The translations under genes and the position numbers were made by a program. From Lachnospiraceae bacterium (lineage in GTDB: Bacteria; Bacillota_A; Clostridia; Lachnospirales; Lachnospiraceae): a DNA stretch of 64,000 nt. Below the pieces are notes generated by a model. That model ran no database searches. It saw nothing but the letters and a program-made list of their open reading frames with translations, and was not told where the DNA came from. The DNA lies in NCBI GenBank assembly GCA_017391465.1, contig JAFOYH010000103.1, forward strand, positions 1 through 64,000, written 5' to 3'. Below, one piece after another: positions 29,200 through 56,845 of the stretch (its first letter is position 1; each line of letters begins with the position of its first letter).

Positions 29200-29205
29200 G
29201 AGAAT

Positions 29206-29442
29206 AACGCGATGATGAGACGAGTAGGATATGAAACATCACAGAGAGGGGCCGTTTGCTGGAAGTGCCCTGTTGGGAAATATCTGAAGACTACCTCGGA
29301 GTGGCTCTAATCCAGCCCGGTGATTCCGTTATCATCAAAATGAAGTGGTTTAACGTAAGTTTACTTGCGTAACAAAAAGGGTGGAACCGCGAGAATAACT
29401 CGTCCCTTTCTGTCAGTAATGATAGAAAGTGGACGTTTTTTT
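29206..29442 (+). ncRNA. T-box riboswitch controlling thrS
   Basis: The leader contains the T-box core AGGGTGGAACCGCG (29378-29391). Stem I elements are AGTA near 29222 and, on the 3' side, GAAGACTACC near 29285, where the specifier can be ACT or ACC, both threonine codons. A terminator hairpin follows (CGTCC...TTTCT with AGAAAG...GGACG, 29401-29435, followed by seven T). Uncharged tRNA-Thr should stabilise the antiterminator and allow thrS transcription. Confidence 0.9.
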
Positions 29443-36945: not shown

Positions 36946-37030
36946 GCAGTTGTGGCGGAATTGGCATACGCGCTAGACTAAGGATCTAGTCCGGGTTAAC
37001 TGGGTACGGGTTCAAGTCCCGTCAACTGCA
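36946..37030 (+). tRNA. tRNA-Leu (anticodon AAG), copy 1
   Basis: An 85-base class II tRNA: acceptor GCAGTTG / CAACTGC, D arm GTGGCGGAATTGGCATACGC, anticodon loop CTAAGGA with AAG at 36980-36982, long variable arm and T arm ACGGGTTCAAGTCCCGT. Discriminator A; CCA is not encoded. It reads CTT leucine codons. An identical copy lies at 38115. Confidence 0.93.
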
Positions 37031-38114: not shown

Positions 38115-38199
38115 GCAGTTGTGGCGGAATTGGCATACGCGCTAGACTAAGGATCTAGTCCGGGTTAACTGGGTACGGGTTCAAGTCCCGTCAACTGCA
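38115..38199 (+). tRNA. tRNA-Leu (anticodon AAG), copy 2
   Basis: Base-for-base identical to the 85-base tRNA at 36946. The preceding leader (AAACTACGTTGTGAG) and the following terminator are also conserved, so the whole transcription cassette is duplicated. Confidence 0.93.
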
Positions 38200-51416: not shown

Positions 51417-51459
51417 AAGCTCTCCTTTGTCATTTTATGTGGCAAAGGAGAGCTTTTTT
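51417..51459 (+). terminator. Terminator of purL
   Basis: AGCTCTCCTTTG pairs with CAAAGGAGAGCT, followed by six T. Confidence 0.85.
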
Positions 51460-51494: not shown

Positions 51495-51523
51495 TTGATA
51501 AGCATGTATCACTACTGTATAAT
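51495..51523 (+). promoter_or_regulatory. Promoter of the SipW-dependent surface protein cluster
   Basis: TTGATA (51495-51500), 17-base spacer and TATAAT (51518-51523). It gives a leader of about 160 bases before the first gene. Confidence 0.65.
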
Positions 51524-51529
51524 TGAAAT

Positions 51530-51693
51530 TGTCAGGAAGGTCCTTCTAACCAACCTCTTTCTATCTATATCTTCGAAGATATTCTTTTATTCAATACTTT
51601 GTTCAAAGTGATTTTTCATTAAATATGTAAAAATAAATGATCGATCTTATAATTCAATTAAAAATTCAGAGATAAATTCATTGGAGGGAAAAT
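51530..51693 (+). other. Long 5' leader of the surface protein cluster with two inverted repeats
   Basis: The leader carries GAAGG-T-CCTTC (51536-51546) close to the expected transcription start and a perfect 16-base palindrome ATATCTTCGAAGATAT (51567-51582). The latter is not followed by a T run long enough for a good terminator. They could be operator sites or RNA structure. The rest is AT-rich. Confidence 0.4.
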
Positions 51694-52413
51694 ATGAAGA
51701 AAAATAAAACAAAAACGATGGGATTAATGGCTTTACTTATTGGAACAATGTCCATTGGAGGTATCATGGCGTATTTCACAGATGGAGATACAGCAACCAA
51801 TACATTTACGGTTGGTAAAATTTCCATTGATCTTCAGGAACCGGAATGGGTTCCGCCGACTGAAATTGTTCCTCAGCAGGAATTTAAGAAGGATCCTCAG
51901 ATTAAAAATGATGGGTTAAATGATGCATTTGTTTTCCTGAAAGTCACAGTTCCATATGACAATGTGGTTACAGCAAATGAAGATGGAAGTAAAAACGATG
52001 CCAAAGATACAGAACTTTTTACATATGATGTCAAAGAAGGATGGACAGAACTTGTATCAAAACAGGTGAAAGATTCCAATGCAAAAACGATTACCCATTT
52101 GTATGCTTATACAGGCGGTCAGCCATCAACGATGGAATCTTTAGCGGTTAATGCAAGCACTCCAAAATTATTTGATTATGTTCGTTTTGCTAACATTGTA
52201 GAAGATCAGCAAATTGAGGCTGCCACATTAAATATTGTAGTTGATGCATTTGCCATTCAGACAACAAATTTAAATGATGGAAAAACTACATTCGATGGCG
52301 ACAACAGTGATGGAACAGTTACGCCGATGGAAGTTTGGAGTATTCTTGAAAAACAGAGTCCTTCTTTAGAGGTGTCTGTGAACGAAGAAATCCATACGGA
52401 TATTAAAAAATAA
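51694..52413 (+). CDS. SipW-signal (TasA/camelysin/BsaA-like) surface protein 1
   Basis: This 239-residue protein has the SipW-dependent signal: hydrophobic LMALLIGTMSIGGIMAYFTD followed by the conserved N..FTVG block (residues about 10-41). The rest is a beta-rich domain (residues 42-235) like camelysin/TasA, with DPQIKNDGLNDAFVFLKVTV as the typical central strand. Such proteins are cut by a SipW-type peptidase and form matrix fibres or surface layers. It opens a five-gene unit ending in a SipW peptidase. GGAGGG precedes the start. Confidence 0.8.
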   Translation: MKKNKTKTMGLMALLIGTMSIGGIMAYFTDGDTATNTFTVGKISIDLQEPEWVPPTEIVPQQEFKKDPQIKNDGLNDAFVFLKVTVPYDNVVTANEDGSKNDAKDTELFTYDVKEGWTELVSKQVKDSNAKTITHLYAYTGGQPSTMESLAVNASTPKLFDYVRFANIVEDQQIEAATLNIVVDAFAIQTTNLNDGKTTFDGDNSDGTVTPMEVWSILEKQSPSLEVSVNEEIHTDIKK

Positions 52414-52436
52414 AGAAAAAATCGTGGGTGATTTAA

Positions 52437-52961
52437 ATGAAGAAAAAAATACCAGTACTCGTATTGGGGTTGGCAATATTAGGCTGCACACTGTTTTCAA
52501 TTTCTACAATTACAGCGTATCTGGCAGATGGTGACTCTGCCAGAAATCCAATTGTTGTAGGTGGAAATCATATAAGTATCGAGGAAGACTTTCAGCCAGA
52601 AGCGATTAAACCAGGAGGCAAAATTACAAAAAAGGTTCGAATAAAAAATGAGGGTCCGAATCGTTGTTTTATACGTGCACGTGTTGTTTTTTCGGATAGT
52701 CAAATCGGACAGTATGCAAATATTGACTGGAATCTTAAAGACTGGGTTTATGATTCTACAGACGAATATTATTACTATACATCAGCGTTAGATCGAGAGG
52801 ACGTTACTTCCTGGCTGATGACAGCGATTCAATTTAATGAAAATATGCCCGCAGAAGATATAGAAGAAGTGGATGTGATTGTTTATGCAGAAAGTTATCA
52901 ATCCTTTGGTTTTTTAGATTATAAAGAAGCATGGGCAGATTATCAGTCGAATCTCAAATAA
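52437..52961 (+). CDS. SipW-signal (TasA-like) surface protein 2
   Basis: This 174-residue smaller relative of its neighbour has a signal (LVLGLAILGCTLFSISTITA, then YLADGDSARNPIVVGGNHIS) and the camelysin-type domain with KKVRIKNEGPNRCFIRARVV near residues 65-84. One extra feature is the YYYYTSALDRED segment. It probably assembles with, or caps, the fibres made by protein 1, as TapA does for TasA in Bacillus; that is an inference from size and order only. Confidence 0.75.
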   Translation: MKKKIPVLVLGLAILGCTLFSISTITAYLADGDSARNPIVVGGNHISIEEDFQPEAIKPGGKITKKVRIKNEGPNRCFIRARVVFSDSQIGQYANIDWNLKDWVYDSTDEYYYYTSALDREDVTSWLMTAIQFNENMPAEDIEEVDVIVYAESYQSFGFLDYKEAWADYQSNLK

Positions 52962-52980
52962 ACGGAAGGAGATGTATGTT

Positions 52981-54123
52981 GTGCGAAAAAGTGTTTGTAA
53001 TGCATTGATATGTCTTGGTTTGATTTTGGGTGTTGGAGGAACATCTGTTTATGCACATACACAAGTTTCTGTTGAAAATCATTTCTCAACAGGTGTTGTT
53101 GATATTGAACTGGAAGAGTATACCCTTCAGCATGGGAAGGAAGTTCCATGGGAAAATAATATAAACTGTGTTTTACCTGGACAGGATATTTATAAAACGC
53201 CTCGCATCATCAATGAAGGCAATGATTGTTATGTTAGAGCAAATGTTCGTTTTATGAATGCGTTATTATCAGTGGATTCTATTTATGGAATGCCAGATTC
53301 GTGGATTTTGGCACCGGACGGATATTATTATTATACAGATGTCCTATTATCCGGAGAAAGTGTTGATTTGTTCGAAGGGTTCAAGTTGCCGGAAGATTTT
53401 GAACAAAATATGGAAGAATCGATGTTTGAACTTCAGATTCAGGTAGATGCTGTCCAAAGTGATCATTTCACTCCGAATTATTCCTTGGATCATCCATGGG
53501 GCAATATTGAAATTCAGAACTGTACGAAAGAAGATATGTATGAATTATCCACATTTAAGCAAAAGGATTATTTGACATTTTGCATTACATATGAAGGTAA
53601 AAGCAAACGTTTAATAACAAACGAGGAAGACTTTTTTAAAAATTTTCCAGTGTTGCTGCCTGGAGATATCTATGAAGAACAATTGGAATTTTCCAATGAT
53701 AGTGAGGAACCAGTGAATCTTTATTTTCGAACAAAGGCTTTGGATGGAACAGAACTTTTGGATAAAGTAATGTTAAAAATTAAGAAAAATATTTATGGTG
53801 AAGAAGAAGTGATTTATGAGGGACCCATTCGAGCAACAGATCTTGCTGAAAATATCTTGCTGGGAACTGTACAATCAGGGGAATCCGGGTGTATGATTTA
53901 TGAAATTTATGTTCCAGAATCATTAGATAACGAGTATACACTTATGGAAGATGAAGTAGTTTGGATTTTTTCTACAGAACCGGTTGCAGAAATTGATGCA
54001 GTACCAACGGGTGATCATACAATTCACATGAGTTTAATCATGTTATGTTCAGGTTTTATATTGATTATGTTAGCTATGGGTATGCGTCTATATGAGAAAG
54101 CGAGGATGAGAAATGGTCAGTAA
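52981..54123 (+). CDS. Membrane-anchored relative of the TasA-like proteins
   Basis: This 380-residue protein has an N-terminal signal (about residues 5-25, ending YAHTQ) and two similar beta domains. The first has PRIINEGNDCYVRANVRFMN and YYYYTDVL as in protein 2; the second has EEQLEFSNDSEEPVNLYFRT. A C-terminal membrane helix (MSLIMLCSGFILIMLAMGM) and a basic tail follow. It could be the membrane anchor of the fibre. I place the start at GTG 52981; the ATG at 52972 touches the ribosome binding site (GGAAGGAG) without spacing. Its end overlaps the next gene by 11 bases. Confidence 0.7.
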   Translation: MRKSVCNALICLGLILGVGGTSVYAHTQVSVENHFSTGVVDIELEEYTLQHGKEVPWENNINCVLPGQDIYKTPRIINEGNDCYVRANVRFMNALLSVDSIYGMPDSWILAPDGYYYYTDVLLSGESVDLFEGFKLPEDFEQNMEESMFELQIQVDAVQSDHFTPNYSLDHPWGNIEIQNCTKEDMYELSTFKQKDYLTFCITYEGKSKRLITNEEDFFKNFPVLLPGDIYEEQLEFSNDSEEPVNLYFRTKALDGTELLDKVMLKIKKNIYGEEEVIYEGPIRATDLAENILLGTVQSGESGCMIYEIYVPESLDNEYTLMEDEVVWIFSTEPVAEIDAVPTGDHTIHMSLIMLCSGFILIMLAMGMRLYEKARMRNGQ

Positions 54124-56212
54124 TATAAAAATTAAAAGAATCCTGTTTTGCATCATTGGTTTGATTTTTATGCTAAGTTCAGCTTTTTCATATGTGTATG
54201 CATCTGAAACGAAAACGGAAAAAGAAGATATGATTCAAGAGTCAGAGACCATATCTATAGAAAGTGTTTTTATAGAAAGTGTTTTTGAAACATACGAATC
54301 TGAGTTGGAAACGGAAACATATGAATCAAATCCTGAGACAGAAGAAGTAGAGACGAAAGACACGGAGGTTTTGGAAACTGTAAATTCTGAAGAGAATGTC
54401 GCAGAATCCGAAGCGGATGAACTTAAAGAACTTACAGAGGATGCCATAAAACAGGTTTTAGGATATTATCATTTTATTCTGACTTATGATGATCTAATGC
54501 GGTTAGAAAAAGAAGGTTATGATATTTCGAGGTTTAGTGAGGCGACTGTTTTCGAAGAAATGGCTTCTATTCCAATGCTTCGTAGTTTGCCTGTAGAGCA
54601 TGATGTAACTCATGTGGGTCAGGCGTCAGTTTCGTATTCTAAATTAGATGCAGATAAATTATATTTATTTGGTTCAAACAGTTATTATAAAAATGGAGCT
54701 TATACAAGAATTTATGGGACAAAAAAACGTATAACTATAGGATCAAAAGTTTATATCGGTTTTTGTTTTGAACCTTCAGGGACGGATCCAATGGCGGATA
54801 CTCTATTGGATTGTTACCGTTTAAATAATCGTCCAGATATCGTTAAAGCACTTTACTATGGGTATGGTGGACCAGAATTCGAAACCGGAGGATTTAAAAC
54901 ATTATTAGATAATATTGGTTCGGATAATTCTTATTTTTATAGTGGTGGAAGAGAAAATTGTTACGAAGTATTAACGCATTGTTTGATTGGAAAACTTTAT
55001 GGTGATTCAGCATGGGCGATGGGGTTATCTCAGGAATCTGCAGATGCTGTTGTGACAATGGAGGATATGTTAAAAAAACTTCCTGGACCAGTAGATCCTG
55101 TGATTTCGTTACAGAGACATGATGGAAAGTCCATTCAAAATGAAGAAACGTATATTGAAAATGGATATCAGAGAACAACGACGTTGAAAGTGACTGGAGA
55201 TTCTAGAAACAATCTTCAACTTAAACTTCCAAAAGGTGTAGAAGCAGTTGATGGTGGCGCGAAAGTTTACTCTGGAACTTTTTCGCTGGCTGGAGGAACA
55301 TATTTTTATCTGAGAGCAAATATAAATTATAGCGGTGTATATGATTCGGGAAATATAAAGGGAGCTTACAGTACAAGCTATGTTCCTTATATGATCTTTG
55401 GAGGTGAAGGAACAAAACAGGATTGCGGTACTTTGTTTTCGGAAAGTTATTCGGCGACCACTTCAATGAGTGTTGTATTTAAAGCTACGACTGGAAACCT
55501 TGTATTAACGAAGATTTCTTCGGATTCAAAAATAATCAATGATGAAGTTAATTATAGTCTGAGTGGTGCAAAATATGGGGTATATAGTAATTCATCGTGT
55601 ACACAATCGGTTGGATTATTAACAACAACTTCCAGTGGATTGACCAATACACTTTCATTAAGTGAAGGAATTTATTATGTTAAAGAAATCGAAGCATCCA
55701 AAGGCTATCATTTGGACACAAATGTCTATAAAGTCGTTGTGAATAGCGGAAAAAAAACTGAATTAAAGGTAAAGGAAGATCCTGTTTTAGGTAAGATATG
55801 TTTAACTAAGGTTATTCATGCAAATGATATTAATTTTGATAATGGCAATCCTATGTTTATGTTTAAGCTGACATATACGGATTCTCAAAATAATGTTCGT
55901 ACATGGTATGAAATTGTAGATTTTACAAAATCTTATGTGGATACACATACAGATGAAAGTGGAGATGTCAGTTTAACGGTTGAATTTGACGAATTAATTG
56001 CAGGAACATATAAAGCATATGAATTAGAAACCAGCAGATATACTCTTGAATCGATCACTCATTTAAAAAATGGTGTAAAAATGAACGATACAGTGAAATT
56101 TACGTTGTCGACATCTGATCAAATGGAAGGAAAGGCAAGGTTTACAAATGATAACTATGAGCAGCAAAATTTCTCGGATTCTGCCAAAGTGATTAATGTA
56201 TTAAAAAAATAG
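54113..56212 (+). CDS. Thioester/SpaA-domain surface protein without a sorting signal
   Basis: The 699 residues begin with a signal peptide (about 8-30). A Glu/Thr/Ser-rich stalk (31-108) follows, then a domain with GFCFEPSGTDP (Cys218) and ALYYGYGGP (246-254) as in thioester (TQXA) adhesin domains. A middle beta region runs about 325-460, then a SpaA/Cna-B-like domain (461-555: GNLVLTKISS with Lys, YYVKEIEASKGY with Glu) and a second one (560-680). Thioester domains bind host or matrix targets covalently; isopeptide domains stiffen. It ends INVLKK, without LPXTG or a membrane helix, so anchoring must use another route. Confidence 0.75.
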   Translation: MVSNIKIKRILFCIIGLIFMLSSAFSYVYASETKTEKEDMIQESETISIESVFIESVFETYESELETETYESNPETEEVETKDTEVLETVNSEENVAESEADELKELTEDAIKQVLGYYHFILTYDDLMRLEKEGYDISRFSEATVFEEMASIPMLRSLPVEHDVTHVGQASVSYSKLDADKLYLFGSNSYYKNGAYTRIYGTKKRITIGSKVYIGFCFEPSGTDPMADTLLDCYRLNNRPDIVKALYYGYGGPEFETGGFKTLLDNIGSDNSYFYSGGRENCYEVLTHCLIGKLYGDSAWAMGLSQESADAVVTMEDMLKKLPGPVDPVISLQRHDGKSIQNEETYIENGYQRTTTLKVTGDSRNNLQLKLPKGVEAVDGGAKVYSGTFSLAGGTYFYLRANINYSGVYDSGNIKGAYSTSYVPYMIFGGEGTKQDCGTLFSESYSATTSMSVVFKATTGNLVLTKISSDSKIINDEVNYSLSGAKYGVYSNSSCTQSVGLLTTTSSGLTNTLSLSEGIYYVKEIEASKGYHLDTNVYKVVVNSGKKTELKVKEDPVLGKICLTKVIHANDINFDNGNPMFMFKLTYTDSQNNVRTWYEIVDFTKSYVDTHTDESGDVSLTVEFDELIAGTYKAYELETSRYTLESITHLKNGVKMNDTVKFTLSTSDQMEGKARFTNDNYEQQNFSDSAKVINVLKK

Positions 56213-56269
56213 GAGGAAAGCAGGGGTGTCTTATGAGACAGCCCTGTATGTTTATATAAGGAAAAGAGA

Positions 56270-56776
56270 ATGAGGAATATTTGTATTATTATAAAACGAT
56301 TACTAACATTTATCATTCATTTAATGTATAGATTGGGTTGGTTTTGTGTTTTTATAATCGTTTGTATTTATTTAGCACGGTTTATGGGCATCCAATCGTA
56401 TATTGTTCGTTCGGGATCTATGGAACCTGGCATGCCAACGGGGAGTATATGTATGGTTGATACAAAATATGAATTTGAAAAAATCAGAGTCAATGATGTT
56501 ATTGCTTTTCGAATGGGAAATAATCTGGTGACACATCGAGTGATTCAGATGACAGAAGATGGATTTATTACAAAAGGTGATCATAATGAAGTGGATGATG
56601 GACTGACAACAACGGAAGAAAACTATGTTGGAAAGAATATAATGATAATCCCGTGTTTGGGATATATTTTGTCCTGGATTCAGACAATAAAAGGAAAAAT
56701 CATTATTGTGACAGTTGCTTTATCTATACTTGTAATTCAGATGATAATGAGACAAGTATCGAATGGAGAGACATAG
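56270..56776 (+). CDS. sipW: SipW-type signal peptidase I (Ser-His)
   Basis: This 168-residue membrane peptidase has an N-terminal helix (about 20-37), the serine motif YIVRSGSMEPGMPTGS with Ser50, and TKGDHNEVDD near 101-110. A C-terminal helix spans about 138-162. In place of the lysine of ordinary signal peptidases it has His89 in VTHRVI, as in SipW and the eukaryotic/archaeal type. Its substrates are expected to be the two TasA-like proteins upstream, whose signals have the matching form. It is followed by a terminator. Confidence 0.85.
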   Translation: MRNICIIIKRLLTFIIHLMYRLGWFCVFIIVCIYLARFMGIQSYIVRSGSMEPGMPTGSICMVDTKYEFEKIRVNDVIAFRMGNNLVTHRVIQMTEDGFITKGDHNEVDDGLTTTEENYVGKNIMIIPCLGYILSWIQTIKGKIIIVTVALSILVIQMIMRQVSNGET

Positions 56777-56796
56777 AAACAATGAACAAAACAAAA

Positions 56797-56845
56797 AGGA
56801 TGTGTGTTCGATTCTTTTTTAATCGGACATACATCCTTTTCTTTT
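56797..56845. terminator. Bidirectional terminator after sipW
   Basis: AGGATGTGTGTTCGATT pairs with AATCGGACATACATCCT with few mismatches, and a T run follows. It separates the cluster from the convergent CorC-like gene. Confidence 0.7.

Follow-up and report, generated by a model that had tools for sequence, protein, structure and literature searches.

A TasA-type gene cluster of Lachnospiraceae with a sorting-signal-free adhesin: a candidate fibre with an exchangeable head

How might a surface adhesin be retained by the cell when it carries no sorting signal of its own? This question is raised by a cluster of five genes in a 64,000-nucleotide stretch of DNA from a Lachnospiraceae bacterium (contig JAFOYH010000103.1, positions 1 to 64,000, assembly GCA_017391465.1; hereafter the window). 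The cluster encodes two TasA-like proteins (TAS1 and TAS2), a larger TasA relative (TAS3), a 699-residue adhesin with a thioester domain and a SipW-type signal peptidase. We consider it probable that these products form a thin, wall-fixed TasA-type fibre presenting an exchangeable adhesin, which would be docked by a tail that mimics the TasA donor strand. The gene set, the folds, the conserved signals, the synteny, the association of the adhesin's C-terminal domain (named A3) with SipW and TasA genes and the likeness of the tail to the donor strand are read from the sequence or from predicted models; from these we infer the assembly, the polarity, the docking partner and the wall anchoring.

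The shared adhesin domain and its tail

The adhesins of the window and of 24 other loci share the A3 domain of about 120 residues, together with a similar tail. The heads in front of it differ: above cut-off we find TED_2 (window, L001, L096, L105, L114), TED (L009, L112), VWA (L002, L153) and AgI/II C2 (L004, L101), and several adhesins in this slot have SpaA repeats only or no known domain. The initial annotation had joined a thioester adhesin to a TasA-type unit; this holds for the window, but the thioester head is one of several that occupy the slot. The position of the adhesin relative to the TAS genes also varies by locus (before, within or after). In three loci (L009, L012 and L111) the adhesins measure 547, 821 and 780 residues; judged by eye, the proteins on either side are similar, which would fit a swap of heads at one chromosomal site.

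Apart from weak matches to DUF7601 and DUF5979 in 6 and 5 of the 25 sequences, A3 lies outside Pfam and NCBIfam, and its profile returned a single match of chance level among solved structures (E value 0.86). Searches of genomes are more telling. A3 is present in 29 of 397 genomes of the family (32 places) and in 7 of 391 genomes of the class (7 places, one repeated), and all 38 distinct places adjoin TasA-like and/or SipW genes. Fifteen of the genomes (nine in the first sample, six in the second) lay outside both the A3 profile and the earlier map, and all 15 fit this neighbourhood. At an E value of 1e-8 no A3 was seen away from TasA/SipW clusters in the 397 + 391 genomes. A3 and TAS3 occur together in 25 of the 397 (Fisher p 2.7e-29, with kinship among genomes uncorrected).

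The tail itself points to the fibre. In TasA, subunits are joined by insertion of residues 28-38 of one subunit into the next, where F29, I32 and F39 are buried (PMC9674648). Residues 27-38 of TAS1 (YFTDGDTATNTF) align with TasA residues 28-39 (AFNDIKSKDATF, with the TasA letters verified in 8aur). The window adhesin has the tail NFSDSAKVINVL, ending in NFSDSAKVINVLKK; those of other loci read AFTDTDLCVNHF, YFTDKTMKTNSI and NFSHTDVTVNHF. When 36 adhesins are scanned with a profile of the TAS1/TAS2 donor strand, the best site falls among the final 60 positions in 23 (2.5 expected), 21 times exactly at the tail, whereas 1000 column-permuted profiles give a mean of 4.2 and a maximum of 16, and none reaches 23. 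Reciprocally, a profile of the tail selects the N-terminal segment of TAS1 in 40 of 43 proteins (11.7 expected) and that of TAS2 in 29 of 38 (13.2 expected). The segments for both scans were chosen by motif patterns, and an earlier comparison of motif-picked profiles was partly circular; it was repeated in hhalign with blocks cut from the alignments without motif choice. Here the tail block scores 17.0 against TAS1 and 16.7 against TAS2 (shuffle means 7.0 and 7.4), with 0 of 60 shuffles as good in each case and the same register. Retention of the adhesin by the fibre proteins, as first suggested, has thus gained specific support from the A3 domain and the tail, from which we infer attachment.

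A related arrangement may exist in which attachment is N-terminal: at L010, L016, L018 and L019, adhesin-like neighbours of 703-788 residues start with a signal that looks SipW-type, followed by a donor-like segment. The N-terminal donor segment in the LamG/Flg_new-type neighbours of L010 and L016-L019 was not singled out by the profile, and this candidate was set aside.

The adhesin head, synteny and layout of the cluster

In Pfam the adhesin scores above cut-off for both TED_2 and SpaA. Compared with known structures, its predicted model resembles TIE proteins and thioester domains (best structural matches 6fwv and 6fwy) and contains a class II thioester fold with beta-sandwich insert; the thioester and SpaA folds first proposed for this protein therefore agree with the predicted structure. 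The putative bond-forming residues Cys218 and Gln436 are kept in 13 of 13 aligned proteins. The TQxxPhiW motif of class II TIE proteins is absent, its place being taken by T288-H289-C290-L291-I292-G293, with His at 289 in 11 of the 13. We considered a dead thioester, in which His289 replaces the Gln of the TQxA motif. This reading was dropped because the bond-forming Gln of class II domains is located later, on the strand after the class II insert (PMC6194298), where Gln436 is the conserved candidate; in the same source the Gln and Trp of TQxxPhiW are described as not essential for the thioester bond. The reported absence of LPXTG was borne out: there is no sorting signal in the last 60 residues.

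The arrangement is conserved, which the initial annotation had named as support. A scan of genome contigs for the TAS3 family gave 20 loci, and 39 TAS3 loci were mapped in all. Within 6 kb of TAS3 and on the same strand, TAS1 is found in 35 of the 39, SipW in 34, TAS2 in 31 and an A3-domain adhesin in 27, with all four in 24. The closest comparison is offered by G001, the Frisingicoccus sp. bin of L001, in which TAS1-TAS2-TAS3-adhesin lie at one contig end and the end of the adhesin, sipW and a CNNM gene on another contig. Given the same gene order and a CNNM protein 83% identical to that of the window at the same place, both clusters lie at the same chromosomal site. The unit is accessory, since at an E value of 1e-20 TAS3 occurs in 32 of 397 genomes of the family of G001 and in one of five of its genus. 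Culturable relatives that carry it include Oliverpabstia intestinalis (L012) and Mediterraneibacter agrestimuris (L002).

At one locus (L002:1955-21143) the cluster has genes of ParA, PrgI and HerA type as neighbours, a hint of a conjugative element, and a T2SSE-type ATPase lies upstream at L006. Cargo of a conjugative element was rejected as a general rule, because the window cluster sits between a PurL-type gene (Pfam) and a convergent CNNM-type gene.

All five genes lie where they were first placed (Table 1), with short gaps, and those for TAS3 and the adhesin overlap. The proposal of one promoter and one terminator holds in part. The terminator behind sipW is strong, but the promoter-like site belongs to a class that is not in excess across the region (23 found against 25.9 expected from shuffles), and an additional hairpin lies between adhesin and sipW. 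As this hairpin is strong, equal transcription of sipW and the other genes cannot be assumed; it could attenuate or process the transcript. No Rfam family was found at gathering score upstream of TAS1, where a riboswitch or known leader RNA was looked for. Elsewhere the window holds a T-box leader (29203-29410) and two 85-base tRNA matches of equal score, 1.2 kb apart (36946-37030 and 38115-38199).

Table 1. Features of the cluster and its borders, in window coordinates
Feature	Position	Strand	Details
Terminator-like hairpin of upstream FGAR-AT/PurL-type gene	51417..51455	+	sets that gene apart from the cluster
Promoter-like site TTGATA-17-TATAAT	51495..51523	+	identified by consensus match (11/12)
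TAS1, TasA/BsaA-like, 239 residues, putative fibre subunit	51694..52413	+	Pfam M73 and TIGR04088 above cut-off
TAS1 residues 27-38, with Asn36	51772..51807	+	matches TasA donor strand (alignment A5)
TAS2, small TasA-like protein, 174 residues, putative minor fibre subunit	52437..52961	+	TIGR04090 and M73 below cut-off; family alignment
TAS3, two-domain TasA relative, 383 residues, putative wall-anchored base	52972..54123	+	
TAS3 end resembling a sorting signal: VPTGD, hydrophobic stretch, basic tail	54001..54120	+	
Adhesin, 699 residues: signal peptide, Glu/Thr-rich stretch, class II thioester domain, SpaA/CnaB, C-terminal domain, tail	54113..56212	+	
Class II thioester domain region, residues 167-459	54611..55489	+	Cys218 54764-54766, Gln436 55418-55420
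SpaA/CnaB-type domain, residues 460-559	55490..55789	+	Pfam match 480-555
C-terminal domain (A3), residues 560-681, CnaB-like, Glu637 and Asn679	55790..56155	+	alignment A3, residue counts, genome searches
Adhesin tail, residues 682-699, with Asn695	56156..56209	+	resembles TasA donor strand
Hairpin without U-run between adhesin and sipW	56220..56247	+	-18.6 kcal/mol, z -4.57
SipW-type signal peptidase, 168 residues, Ser50/His89	56270..56776	+	TIGR02228
Terminator hairpin closing the cluster, strong, 3' of sipW	56794..56840	+	z -7.66

Putative fibre proteins, wall signal and conserved triad

The two TasA-like proteins of the initial annotation are recovered with different strength. TAS1 passes the Pfam model M73 (camelysin; 33.2 bits against a cut-off of 22.5, 5.9e-8) and the model of the SipW-type signal, TIGR04088 (24.9 bits against 19), and scores 38.5 bits for the BsaA family TIGR04090, below its cut-off of 60. 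TAS2 matches the same families below cut-off (M73 17.7 bits, 0.0034; TIGR04090 44.9 bits, 1.1e-11), and TAS3 likewise scores below (13.6 and 31.6 bits). TAS2 and TAS3 are therefore regarded as TasA relatives by family alignments and not counted as M73 members. The Ser-His SipW peptidase is confirmed as a signal peptidase I of the ER/archaeal type, with Ser50 in SMEP and His89 in THRV: it passes TIGR02228 (91.3 against 51.85 bits, 5.8e-26), and scores below the equivalog model for Bacillus SipW, NF046067 (80.3 bits against a cut-off of 190).

TAS3 had been given a C-terminal membrane anchor, a claim that we revise: its end is a signal of sortase type, in which T346-G347-D348 is invariant among 34 of 34 aligned homologues (alignment A1). 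Hence TAS3 is the better candidate for the wall anchor. TG is also seen at the TAS3 end in 30 of 40 census loci, a count based on rough automatic picks of sorting signals. A sortase is present in 16 of 18 TAS3 genomes of relatives. A plain membrane anchor, set aside by the invariant TGD, may still apply in the other two (G004 and G367, loci L004 and L101), whose TAS3 ends in V(D/E)TGD although no PF04203 sortase was found. At two loci (L117:9586-11178 and L118:9468-11060) the sorting signal of 531-residue TAS3 relatives is replaced by wall-binding repeats of choline-binding type. A sortase gene directly adjoining the adhesin was noticed once (L107:5911-6741, minus strand; PF04203 6.8e-9).

An Asn, a Glu and a Lys are conserved throughout the three TAS families: Asn36 in 45, Glu49 in 46 and Lys66 in 45 of 47 TAS1 rows, the corresponding residues in 39, 38 and 39 of 39 TAS2 rows, and in 34, 34 and 32 of 34 TAS3 rows. 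The first TAS1 and TAS2 alignments shared 28 rows; the 39 rows are a TAS2-alone set. A set of 53 distant TasA-like proteins, drawn from 18 other loci, keeps Lys in 52, Glu in 52 and Asn in 50 (tied with one Ala); these are the best-conserved of the first 150 residues of TAS1, although this set and that of 120 closer TAS1 homologues were gathered with profiles that include these residues. The closer homologues do not discriminate, because many positions are invariant. In the adhesin tail Asn695 is kept in 25 of 25 sequences. B. subtilis TasA keeps the Glu and the Lys and has Ala37 at the position of the Asn.

Lys and Asn together with a Glu form the triad of isopeptide bonds. Any such bond would here be formed between subunits, because the Asn sits in the donor segment. 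It is possible, though we hold it with some doubt, that the joints of the fibre are self-made bonds between the Asn of a donor strand and the Lys of the next subunit, aided by the Glu and locking donor-strand exchange, and that the tail Asn does likewise, giving each fibre a covalent, adhesin-primed end. The conserved residues can also serve other roles. Polymers of BsaA withstand sodium dodecyl sulphate (SDS), boiling and formic acid; they are independent of sortase and assemble even in E. coli, and the authors call for a structure to explain this (PMC7395162). A term search of the isopeptide survey PMC12617251 found no mention of TasA or camelysin.

Proposed assembly, alternatives and known systems

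In the assembly that we favour, SipW would remove the signal peptides of TAS1, TAS2 and TAS3. TAS1, with TAS2, would build the shaft through donor-strand exchange as in TasA, and TAS3, built of a TasA-like and an Ig-like domain and bearing the TGD signal, would fix the fibre to the wall. For its export the adhesin would use an ordinary signal peptide; having no anchor of its own, it would dock on the fibre through the A3 domain and the donor-mimicking tail. Since TapA supplies the first donor strand in B. subtilis (PMC9674648, PMC10151520), an adhesin that offers only a donor may in the same way prime the fibre, ending at its free end.

A number of observations weigh against this assembly. The tail profile is weak on TAS3 (11 of 40, 6.6 expected), and a query with A3 in full prefers a different stretch of TAS1. 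In six later loci the best site of the donor profile falls at the tail in two adhesins and in the last 60 positions in one more; the adhesin end of L005 is degenerate and the L150 adhesin has no motif. Five large adhesins (L006, L007, L011, L013, L099) carry A3 and motif internally, with several hundred residues beyond, so that a free C-terminal end is not always needed. No A3 adhesin accompanies TAS3 at 12 of the 39 loci (L010, L015-L019, L117, L118 and others). As for the fibre proteins, the TAS1 profile has no match among solved structures at an E value of 0.1; the TAS3 model matches TasA structures (second domain, TasA jellyroll) with a score barely above the level of chance matches, and no TasA appears in the top 50 of Foldseek's own list for it. 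Finally, L016-L019 have TWD or TSD where TGD is expected in TAS3, and the search with PF04203 found no sortase in G004 and G367.

Some of these points could be explained by two separate systems, that is, a TasA-type matrix fibre and a co-regulated adhesin, free or retained in the matrix, whose C-terminal domain binds polysaccharide of wall or matrix rather than the fibre. The loci without A3 adhesin and the variable place of the adhesin gene would fit. We nevertheless regard this as unlikely, given that A3 was seen nowhere else in the 397 + 391 genomes at an E value of 1e-8 though its heads exchange, and that the tail resembles the joining strand of the TAS proteins. It might also be argued that the tail belongs structurally to the CnaB-like domain, for instance as its last strand or an internal isopeptide partner, and that its likeness to TasA reflects convergence of a short Asp/Asn/Phe motif. 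The motif is indeed short (12 positions), stays attached to the domain where both are internal, and is seldom the best site in the later loci. Yet in the predicted model residues 682-699 lie, with low confidence (predicted local distance difference test, pLDDT, 53-58), apart from the domain, the domain has its own Asn679 (24 of 25) besides Asn695, and shuffles never reach the observed likeness to the N-termini of TAS1 and TAS2. This explanation, too, appears improbable to us.

A further alternative concerns the wall. As with BsaA of C. perfringens, the fibre might be of a matrix type that has no anchor; TAS3, bearing its TGD, would then be a separate wall protein with no part beyond nucleating or regulating the fibre. 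BsaA indeed needs no srtB to polymerise and is found mostly outside the cell (PMC7395162), and TapA is a nucleator and not a permanent part (PMC10151520). However, TAS3 resembles TasA too, shares the conserved Asn, Glu and Lys, and has TAS1 within 6 kb in 35 of the 39 mapped loci; a role of TAS3 outside the fibre seems rather unlikely. We retain the wall-fixed fibre as the better account.

Components of each kind are known from other systems. One is the TasA-TapA-SipW fibre of B. subtilis, where SipW processes subunits of the TasA family and TasA joins by donor-strand exchange (PMC9674648). There TapA gives the first donor strand (PMC10151520), whereas no TapA homologue was identified in the window cluster, which has instead a TasA relative with a sortase signal and a thioester adhesin; its donor segment carries Asn in place of Ala37. 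The C. perfringens cluster sipW-bsaABCRSD is likewise a clostridial operon with a SipW-dependent TasA-like polymer and further secreted proteins (PMC7395162), and TAS1-3 all match TIGR04090 below cut-off. It differs in that its polymers are mostly extracellular and sortase-independent and that the account in PMC7395162, as far as drawn on here, describes no adhesin with a thioester head.

On the side of the adhesin, the class II TIE proteins BaTIE, EfmTIE86 and SaTIE also place CnaB domains after a class II thioester domain, with Cys and Gln conserved. These are anchored by sortase (PMC6194298), whereas the window adhesin ends in A3 and the tail. TIEpLS20 of plasmid pLS20, in contrast, is a class II thioester adhesin that lacks a sorting signal, and its retention on the cell was posed as an open question (PMC8092201). 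Likened here by description, it is encoded by a B. subtilis conjugation-system plasmid, and the portion of that source used mentions no link to TasA or SipW. The archaeal thread filament (Saci_0406), also likened by description, is a donor-strand filament for which an isopeptide bond linking the subunits has been proposed (PMC9715654); that bond joins Asn57 to the N-terminal Asp24 two subunits away, and the parts of the source used describe no such adhesin. What is new in the window is how these parts are combined, along with a conserved docking domain whose tail is donor-like and a triad of Asn, Glu and Lys. Literature searches of open-licence PubMed Central texts did not find this gene arrangement.

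If the proposed assembly is true, TasA-type fibres in many Clostridia would be appendages that present an adhesin with an exchangeable head, a pilus-like architecture built from other parts. It would provide a mechanism for the surface retention of class II thioester adhesins without sorting signal, as asked for TIEpLS20 (PMC8092201), and the tail and A3 domain together form a sequence handle for finding such adhesins. Covalent joints, if they exist, would in addition account for the sortase-free resistance of BsaA polymers to SDS, boiling and formic acid (PMC7395162), and B. subtilis TasA, with its Ala37, would then be the non-covalent relative.

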